This document shows, piece by piece, positions 10,772-12,895 of a stretch of 64,000 bases of DNA. Each line of letters opens with the position of its first letter. The stretch's first letter is position 1. Below the pieces are notes generated by a model. The model ran no database searches. It was not told the origin of the DNA and was given only the letters and a program-made list of their open reading frames with translations. The stretch is taken from positions 27,828 to 91,827 of the forward strand of contig JAFLSG010000005.1 in assembly GCA_022511065.1 (NCBI GenBank), in the 5' to 3' direction. A program made the translations under genes and the position numbers. This stretch comes from Prevotella sp. (GTDB taxonomy: Bacteria; Bacteroidota; Bacteroidia; Bacteroidales; Bacteroidaceae).

Positions 10772-12535
10772 CTATTCATAATGCTCAGTAAAAGTTGTGC
10801 CGTTAATTTCAACATACAGATTTACACCAGCTGGGAGAGGATTGCTTAATTCCCAATGTTCCGCAACGAATCCTAATGGAGATGTAAGGGCGGTCTCGCC
10901 AACTTTACAGTTTTCAAAAACAAGTGTCACATTATAATCGGAATAGGTTACGTCGGTTTTTCTGGAACTTGTTATCGGGCCGTAATAGTCCACTCCTTCG
11001 GGAATTTCATCAATGGATTCAACTTCGTGGTAGATGTTCTCGCTGTCATAATAATAGTAATATTTGTAGAGAATTTCATTACCATTTTCGTCATAGACAT
11101 AATCATAATCCCAAATGCTTGCGTAAGTGATCATTCCTTCGTAGAAAGTACAGTCTTTAAAACTAAGTTTGTACGAAGGAATTTCTGCCGTTTGGGATGG
11201 GGGTGTTATTGTTATTTGATGACTAGTACATCTTTCGTCTGGTTTAATGAAATTGCACCCCGAGATTGTACCTGTTGTTGCTGCATCTTTTCTAAGCCTA
11301 ACACTATTAAATGAGAGGGTGCAGTTTTCCATGTTGCCTGGCACTTCAAATATGGTATAGAGAATCCTTTCTCCTTCTGCAAGTCCTTTCTTGCCTTCTT
11401 CTGTTGCAGGCTCGACAGATATAGCTACATTTTTAATACTCTCAACAGCTCTTAAGGTTCCAGATAGTTCAATATACTTTCCACCATATTCATCAGCCGG
11501 AGCTATCGTAGGCATATAATCTCTGAATACTAATTCTGCGCCGGTTCCTTCAGCCTCAATAACTTTTGCACCAGGTACTCCCCCGCCGTTTACTTTCATG
11601 GTACTCCCTTCTGCCAATATCAATTTGTCCACCGCATATGCTCTATGGAAAATTTCCACAAGTGCATAATCGGCAGTCCCTTTGAGAATTTTTAGACTAT
11701 TGAAACTGTAAATGTGGCGATCGTTGTTCTCACTCTGAACATGGGAAACGCCAACTCCTGATTCTGAGCTGTTTTCTGTAATAAAATAAGAGTAGCCTTG
11801 TTCTTGTCCATCGCTCAATACGCATAGTGCGTATTCATTTACTGTCGGTGCATGAACGTAAGTCTCAGCCTTTCCTCCGTCCTTTATCGTTACAATACCG
11901 TCTTTGACTTGCAATTCCTTGACCGTAATGCCGTTGCTGATATACGATTCTGTTGTGGCGATGGTTGCGACAACTTCGTTATAGACAACACTTCCTGATG
12001 CCGCATTTAGCGTTGTGCCAGTCTCTGGCATGTTCAGTTCAAGGCTAAGTCCTGTTGATTCTGGCATGGTAATGGTGAGCGTATTGACTGCTTCGGTGGA
12101 TGTCGTGCTTGCGGTTTCCGCAGCCTTAACTACAAGAGGCACTTCTGTGGTAATGCCATTCGCAAAGGTCAGGTTGATATTGGATTTCTCTACCTTTGGC
12201 ACACTAACGGTGTTGTCATCACTCGTTGCTTTGAGGCCTTCGCTGATGATTTCCACTACATACTCTTGTCCTACTTTGGAAGCAATGTCTGACTTAATTT
12301 GGTTGAGCAGTTCGGTGATGTCCGACACCTTCTCCACCTTGATTGTTGCGCCGGTGGATGTGAGGGTTACGCTCCCGTCATCCTCTGGCTCGGTAGGAGT
12401 CTCGGTAGGTGTGTCGTTAGGTCCGAAAAGGTCATCCCAAAACTCTTGGCATGATGTCATCGTCATTGACACACTCAAAAGCATCATGGCTGTTGTCATG
12501 GCTTTCTTGAAATTGAAACAGTTCTTTTTCATCAT
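10772..12535 (-). CDS. Large surface lipoprotein of unknown function
   Basis: Lipobox LLSVSMTMTSC; acidic/Thr-Pro linker after Cys; 587 aa. Confidence 0.65.
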   Translation of the reverse strand: MMKKNCFNFKKAMTTAMMLLSVSMTMTSCQEFWDDLFGPNDTPTETPTEPEDDGSVTLTSTGATIKVEKVSDITELLNQIKSDIASKVGQEYVVEIISEGLKATSDDNTVSVPKVEKSNINLTFANGITTEVPLVVKAAETASTTSTEAVNTLTITMPESTGLSLELNMPETGTTLNAASGSVVYNEVVATIATTESYISNGITVKELQVKDGIVTIKDGGKAETYVHAPTVNEYALCVLSDGQEQGYSYFITENSSESGVGVSHVQSENNDRHIYSFNSLKILKGTADYALVEIFHRAYAVDKLILAEGSTMKVNGGGVPGAKVIEAEGTGAELVFRDYMPTIAPADEYGGKYIELSGTLRAVESIKNVAISVEPATEEGKKGLAEGERILYTIFEVPGNMENCTLSFNSVRLRKDAATTGTISGCNFIKPDERCTSHQITITPPSQTAEIPSYKLSFKDCTFYEGMITYASIWDYDYVYDENGNEILYKYYYYYDSENIYHEVESIDEIPEGVDYYGPITSSRKTDVTYSDYNVTLVFENCKVGETALTSPLGFVAEHWELSNPLPAGVNLYVEINGTTFTEHYE

Positions 12536-12599
12536 AACTTTTGTTTTTAATTAGTGAATAAAGTTGAATTAACCAATCAGTCTCAAAAGTGATGCAATG

Positions 12600-12860
12600 G
12601 GGTAGGGACACAAGAATGGCGTGGCCATCCCTATGCACTTAACCTAAGGGGCGAGCCTGGAAATGGAACCCCTGCCAACCATATAAGAATGCTACCACGC
12701 CAAAGACGTGAGCATAGCTAATGAGTTGGCACGGGATTCTGCCGAGGCAGACCCTTTGCAAATTATTCGAACTATTCCAAAATAAGTTTCCAGGCTTCTT
12801 CGGTTAAGTGCGAAATAATAAGCTAATGCATCTATATCCGGGATTTCTCCCCCGGACTCG
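12600..12860 (-). ncRNA. Candidate structured RNA (independent sRNA or long structured leader of the lipoprotein mRNA)
   Basis: Complementary segments 12635-12644/12802-12811, 12654-12663/12787-12796, 12673-12679/12725-12731, 12689-12693/12711-12715; perfect promoter just upstream on the minus strand. Confidence 0.6.
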
Positions 12861-12863
12861 GTG

Positions 12864-12895
12864 CAAATGTAGTTAATATTGTTGGAACACGCAAA
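12864..12895 (-). promoter_or_regulatory. Bacteroidetes-type promoter for candidate RNA
   Basis: Minus strand TTTG (12892-12895)-N20-TACATTTG (12864-12871). Confidence 0.75.

Follow-up and report, generated by a model that had tools for sequence, protein, structure and literature searches.

A structured RNA family in the position of a 5′ leader for restriction–modification and surface-protein genes in Bacteroidales

The window analyzed here, a 64,000-nucleotide stretch of Prevotella DNA, carries on its minus strand a strongly structured RNA of ~270 nt upstream of a lipoprotein gene. We consider it probable, from comparison of related sequences, that this RNA belongs to a family of cis-regulatory 5′ leaders whose ancestral job would have been to hold down or time restriction–modification (RM) or defence operons, and that the branch containing the window copy was co-opted. 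The observations underlying the leader reading are promoter position, fold, covariation, position relative to genes, gene association and phylogeny. Since relatives directly precede RM genes and the window branch precedes cell-surface protein genes, the window RNA probably controls how strongly the downstream genes are expressed. The main elements are as follows:

12864–12895, minus strand: Bacteroidota-type promoter, TTTG-N20-TACATTTG, from direct reading and from the TAnnTTTG box that 70 of 73 homologues carry at this offset
12590–12862, minus strand: leader RNA, long variant, surface-gene clade (fold z −5.84; 208 bits with covariance model R1; 93.9 bits, E 5.8e-19, with R2)
10772–12535, minus strand: open reading frame for a 587-aa lipoprotein of unknown family, the presumed regulated gene

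On the minus strand, TTTG (12895–12892), 20 nt and TACATTTG (12871–12864) are followed directly by the RNA, confirming the proposal of the first-pass annotation that the RNA has its own promoter. The TAnnTTTG box lies 18–20 nt 5′ of GGGGAGAAATCCC (−18 to −20 relative to GGGGAG) and is kept among the 73 homologues even though their upstream DNA is mostly unrelated; thus, the window promoter is not a chance match. The 5′ end of the window RNA was placed from the promoter, and its 3′ end was taken as the last conserved pairing. The interval first assigned to the element, 12600–12895, does contain a structured RNA, but its 3′ side extends slightly further, to ~12590; the span of ~12862–12590 follows from the added helix P0, the pseudoknot PK1 and an additional pairing of the GGCGTGG strand. 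An AT-rich spacer comes next, and the lipoprotein ATG stands at 12535, 55 nt on. No second TAnnTTTG box was found between the RNA and this ATG in the window sequence.

The minimum free energy (MFE) of the window RNA was −109.2 kcal/mol, compared with −78.8 ± 5.2 kcal/mol for 200 dinucleotide shuffles, none of which folded as well (z −5.84). All complementarities listed in the first-pass annotation were found (GCACTTAACC/GGTTAAGTGC, AGCCTGGAAA/TTTCCAGGCT, GCCAAC/GTTGGC, and CACG/CGTG with ATGC/GCAT), as were its local hairpins (TCCGGG..CCCGGA at the 5′ end, TCTGC-CTCG-GCAGA, and a 3′ hairpin at 12633–12603). To these we added P0 (GATGCA/TGCATC), the pseudoknot AGGGG/CCCCT and, for the GGCGTGG strand, a second partner at 12634–12618. 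The elements of the fold, all on the minus strand, are:

12837–12856: 5′ hairpin H1, TCCGGGGGAGAAATCCCGGA (z −6.1)
12827–12832: P0 5′ strand GATGCA, paired with TGCATC at 12596–12591 (MFE fold)
12802–12811: P2 5′ strand GCACTTAACC (covariation)
12635–12644: P2 3′ strand GGTTAAGTGC (covariation)
12787–12796: P3 5′ strand AGCCTGGAAA (pairing in 99% of cells, covariation in 7 of 9 pairs)
12654–12663: P3 3′ strand TTTCCAGGCT (covariation)
12775–12779: P4 5′ strand TGGAA, paired with TTCCA at 12668–12664 (duplex-energy z −9.7, the sole basis for P4)
12725–12730: P6 5′ strand GCCAAC, paired with GTTGGC at 12679–12674 (z −24.8 and −28.3)
12669–12673: PK1 5′ strand AGGGG, paired with CCCCT at 12651–12647 (covariation)
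12705–12710: strand a, CACGTC, local partner of b (covariation)
12683–12701: strand b, GGCGTGGTAGCATTCTTAT, common to two mutually exclusive helices, a:b and b:c (both covary)
12618–12634: strand c, ATAGGGATGGCCACGCC, alternative long-range partner of b, with a U-rich stretch 3′ of it (covariation; z −12.6)
12603–12633: local 3′ hairpin c:f, alternative to b:c (MFE fold; duplex energies)

H1 is possibly a GAAA tetraloop hairpin, and its GGGGAGAAATCCC is near-invariant within the Prevotella-type branch, in part since loci were found by that pattern.

Covariation across homologues was present in P2, P3, P4, P6, PK1, a:b and b:c. For P2, P3, a:b and PK1 together, the covariation score on an alignment of 66 distinct sequences was 0.329, compared with 0.160 in shuffled alignments (0 of 500 as high) and a maximum of 0.072 when strands were slid, the alignment itself favouring P2, P3 and part of a:b, which were in the model that built it, whereas PK1 and b:c were not. 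The b:c helix scored 0.248, compared with 0.192 when shuffled (0 of 500) and at most 0.105 when slid, and its GC-rich half was paired in 97–98% of cells. A comparison of matched with mismatched duplex energies agreed with these scores, with z values of −28.3 for P6, −19.1 for P3, −15.5 for P2, −12.6 for b:c, −9.7 for c:f, −7.0 for PK1 and −6.8 for a:b, and of −7.3 for b:c within distant genera alone; as permutation results, these values take no account of relatedness and should not be read as probabilities. Individual loci were also telling: L116 pairs GGCAUG with CAUGCC, L126 pairs GGUGUAG with CUACACC, and L151 pairs GGCGU(GA)ACCGUU with AACGGUAACGCC, followed by UUUUUU, while PK1 changes from AGGGG/CCCCU to UGAGG/CCUCA and other combinations. 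Strand b therefore has two covarying partners, a and c. G-U pairs are common in b:c, with 33 G-U or U-G cells against 9 unpaired ones in the b5:c3 helix, as expected if the proposed strand is RNA. Together with the fold and the lack of any Rfam 15 match, this covariation supports the suggestion that the region encodes a novel structured RNA.

More than 100 homologues were found, almost all in Bacteroidales. The genome of the window holds four clear copies, namely the window copy (C49), C62 (83% identical), C37 and C74, and a fifth on C44 that is shorter and weaker. An exact-pattern scan of GTDB contigs (GGGGAGAAATCCC, a gap and TATTATTTCGC) returned 70 loci; every one had a Bacteroidales title, and most came from rumen Prevotella-like genomes. 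Of 199 near-complete genomes from the genus, 85 had a hit to R1, a model built from 61 sequences, which also detected full-length RNA in other families of the order. R2 was built from 32 RM-type leaders with the window copy left out, and nonetheless matched the window copy and all four other copies of its genome. Across the order, R2 matched 34 of 395 genomes and 21 of 205 genera; among 349 phylum-wide genomes, it matched only this genome and, marginally, two others, whose sequences nonetheless have the a/b/c layout. At the sensitivity used, no RNA was found in viral contigs, phages or plasmids, and a phage, plasmid or viral origin was rejected on that account. One locus, L180 (G120:C54), carries two leader copies 3 kb apart (488 and 3471), the first leading an LRR/DUF285 protein, a local duplication of the RNA. 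A shorter relative of ~200 nt (L172, which is C44 of this genome, L127, L130, L131, L182, L183 and L226) stands before genes for secreted or unknown proteins and is also present in other orders of the class; a dedicated model would probably extend the family widely.

No Rfam 15 family reached its gathering score anywhere in the window or in 20 distant homologue loci; with the cutoff relaxed to E 10, the surroundings of the RNA gave just two matches, both at chance level. The layout had initially been likened to 6S-type RNAs, but RF00013 and RF01685 were unmatched at E ≤ 10 and were also absent from the 20 distant loci. A likeness to Bacteroidales-1 fared no better, RF01693 being unmatched at gathering score (a match would have needed >60 bits) or at E ≤ 10. 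Of the initial interpretation, then, two points are retained, a novel structured RNA driven from its own promoter and, as the fallback, a regulatory leader; the two family likenesses are abandoned. A true Bacteroidales-1 RNA (RF01693, 106.8 bits) lies elsewhere in the same genome (L034, C32).

The position of the RNA relative to genes is that of a leader. A same-strand ATG occurs within 110 nt 3′ of the RNA in 101 of 126 copies, most often at 26–50 nt; the other 25 have no close downstream ATG, partly owing to contig ends. In nearly all RM-type leaders, whatever the gene type, a hairpin GATTGATAGT..ACTATCAATC adjoins the ATG, and its loop usually contains ATGC or TGC, complementary to an invariant 5′ GCATT, at a distance from GCATT to hairpin of ~240–290 nt in nearly all of them. 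The hairpin is kept in L114 and L125 with compensatory changes on both sides. It was not seen in class A copies, the class of the window copy, which keeps P0, whose counterpart in RM-type leaders is the 5′ GCATT/loop ATGC pairing. A conserved, covarying structure with a promoter 5′ of it thus stands at a fixed position, on the same strand, before a coding gene. This comparative evidence supports the fallback reading of a leader for the downstream lipoprotein, for which regulation itself is the predicted function.

The genes behind the leaders point to defence, a context beyond what the window sequence alone could show. In a gene-blind search of other genera, ~18 of 25 leaders (hand count) headed RM or defence genes of unrelated types, including EcoRI-type, N4/N6, D12 and MmeI methyltransferases, Tsp45I and a ResIII helicase, mostly with the conserved start-codon hairpin. 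EcoRI_methylase was downstream at 37 loci and was followed by a GmrSD_N/HNH endonuclease, identified as REase_II by PADLOC. In the genome of the window, the C74 copy leads an N6_N4 methylase and an REase_II (type II endonuclease), a pairing that recurs in another genus, and the C62 copy leads a paralogue of the 587-aa lipoprotein. Further downstream genes encode a Tsp45I endonuclease with its methylase, an MmeI-type IIG enzyme, a D12 methylase and a ResIII helicase. Within the genus, the ~200-nt variant leads type IIG enzymes, Eco57I-type methylases and PLD/SNF2 restriction helicases, and elsewhere secreted proteins. Other targets are sulfatase/EptA-like, acyltransferase and glycosyltransferase genes, a C10 peptidase, LRR proteins and lipoproteins. 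Among 25 EcoRI-methylase loci sampled order-wide, 8 had the RNA by R1 and 2 more had diverged versions recognized by eye. Three EcoRI-type methylases without the RNA (L144, L145 and L165) have a small helix-turn-helix (HTH) gene in its slot, two of these being confirmed as HTH_3/Cro-C1 type.

Several loci hold further candidates. A 770-aa protein lies directly behind an RM-type leader at L035:3225–5534 (plus strand) and L103:2708–5017 (minus strand); it had no Pfam match at either locus and no PADLOC match at L103, and it may be an undescribed defence gene. At L054:110–847 (minus strand), the gene behind a leader encodes a 246-aa protein with a weak match to the candidate defence family PDC-S31. 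In five loci (L051, L056, L047, L068 and L079), the leader is followed by a fragmentary or missing methylase ORF, which suggests decaying RM loci that retain the RNA.

In a midpoint-rooted RNA tree, one nested, supported clade with zero RM members holds the Prevotella-type surface-gene leaders, the window copy among them. RM leaders fall outside it in several branches, and one other secreted-type leader (L175) lies among distant leaders. The simplest reading is that the family ancestrally stood in front of RM operons and that the Prevotella branch including the window copy was co-opted to surface-protein genes; as the rooting is by midpoint, this RM-first direction is not proven.

From these features we infer regulation, with a:b and b:c as a switch, a sign of control and possibly a signal. 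Transcription would start at the TACATTTG promoter, and the nascent leader would fold into a compact pseudoknotted domain (P2, P3, P4, P6 and PK1) with its ends tied by P0, a fold that would set the output of the downstream gene. Control would most likely act through strand b, which could pair with a inside the domain or with c; like an intrinsic terminator, b:c would place a GC-rich stem ahead of a U-rich run, so that whichever of a:b and b:c forms could determine termination or translation for the gene that follows. Many class A copies have a broken U-run (longest run, 5 at the median). When the window core was folded with a nested model that excludes pseudoknots, a:b gave −89.2 and forced b:c −66.4 kcal/mol, a preference of 23 kcal/mol for a:b; b:c therefore cannot arise as a state of simple equilibrium, which weakens the case for a simple terminator/antiterminator switch working at equilibrium. 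Formation of b:c would instead take a pseudoknotted, co-transcriptional or protein-assisted route, the weakest step of the proposal. In RM leaders, the extra hairpin, loop-tied to the 5′ end, abuts the start codon, which suggests translational control there.

We weighed these data against four other explanations. An independent small RNA acting in trans, whether 6S-like or of another kind and lying upstream of genes by chance while the gene is transcribed from elsewhere, would fit the RNA's own promoter, extensive closed structure and weak terminator-like 3′ part; however, the same-strand ATG distance is fixed across unrelated genes, the last hairpin adjoins the ATG in RM-type leaders, gene types follow the RNA tree, and neither a 6S match nor a second TAnnTTTG box before the window ATG was seen, so we regard it as unlikely. 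Slightly less likely still is a mobile gene cassette in which the genes would be cargo, with recombination or capture taking place at the RNA or its DNA hairpin. The patchy distribution, the several copies per genome and cargo typical of defence islands would suit such a cassette, yet the element is absent from the viral, phage and plasmid collections, the promoter is fixed to the RNA, and the frequent G-U pairs are those expected of RNA.

The other two explanations give the RNA a specific binding partner. Leader position, a compact pseudoknotted domain and two alternative pairings are what a metabolite riboswitch would show, for example one for S-adenosylmethionine (SAM), which methylases use, but the targets form no metabolic pathway, surface lipoproteins and LRR proteins are unlinked to SAM, and no Rfam riboswitch matched; we consider a riboswitch very unlikely. 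Least likely of all is an RNA that binds and neutralizes the encoded protein, as in type III toxin–antitoxin systems or AbiF. AbiF provides a precedent (PMC12373285), and the RNA does stand directly 5′ of defence genes; however, no short repeated motif was seen, and the downstream proteins (at least four methylase families, a helicase, a sulfatase, an acyltransferase and lipoproteins) have unrelated folds, which makes one RNA that binds them all unlikely. The preferred reading of a cis-regulatory leader has a point against it as well: methyltransferases have no obvious ligand in common with surface proteins, sulfatases or acyltransferases.

The kind of element, a cis leader RNA, is known; the family, its association with RM and defence genes and its co-option to surface genes appear to be new. 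The literature within reach, which left out most subscription papers and a 2017 survey of 224 candidate RNAs, yielded no RM leader RNA in Bacteroidales; many families of that survey are reportedly in Rfam. In a paper on Prevotella RM systems, "leader sequence" refers to CRISPR only. RM genes are dangerous if expressed out of order. The RNA-level RM controls reviewed in PMC3874152 are short antisense RNAs, and a leader that recurs before at least four unrelated types of methylase would amount to a general layer of RNA control over bacterial immunity. The carriers are dominant gut and rumen bacteria, and occurrence in 20-plus genera makes the leader directly testable; the same leader on Prevotella surface-protein genes links defence with cell-surface expression. 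Tentatively, the family might constitute a Bacteroidales-wide class of RNA regulators for RM and anti-phage operons, an RNA counterpart of C proteins, in which the three-strand switch and the 5′-tied start-codon hairpin would time or bistably gate methylase and endonuclease, possibly in response to infection, with re-use for Prevotella surface proteins.

C proteins, which are HTH controllers, set the timing of type II RM systems. The leader resembles them in that, in other Bacteroidales, its slot directly before EcoRI-type methylases of the same family is filled by a small HTH gene, which would act as a C protein there, and it differs in being RNA rather than protein, with no sequence relation. 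Bacteroidales-1 (RF01693) is likewise a Bacteroidales structured RNA of comparable length, but it has a different sequence and its separate copy at C32. A long-range closing stem is shared with 6S and 6S-Flavo RNAs (RF00013 and RF01685), whereas the leader has no match to their covariance models, is multibranched and pseudoknotted, and has several copies in a genome, almost all of them at the start of a gene. The abiF RNA (RF03085) and type III toxin–antitoxin RNAs are also structured RNAs 5′ of phage-defence genes; the abiF motif, however, is 36–37 nt, repeated and bound to a HEPN protein (PMC12373285), while the leaders described here are ~250–300 nt, single and placed before unrelated proteins. 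Finally, the type II RM genes of EcoRI and Eco29kI are controlled at the RNA level by short antisense RNAs from reverse promoters, in a review that does not mention riboswitches and whose sole "leader" is in the symE toxin mRNA (PMC3874152); those RNAs are short and antisense, whereas the RNA described here is a sense, structured leader.
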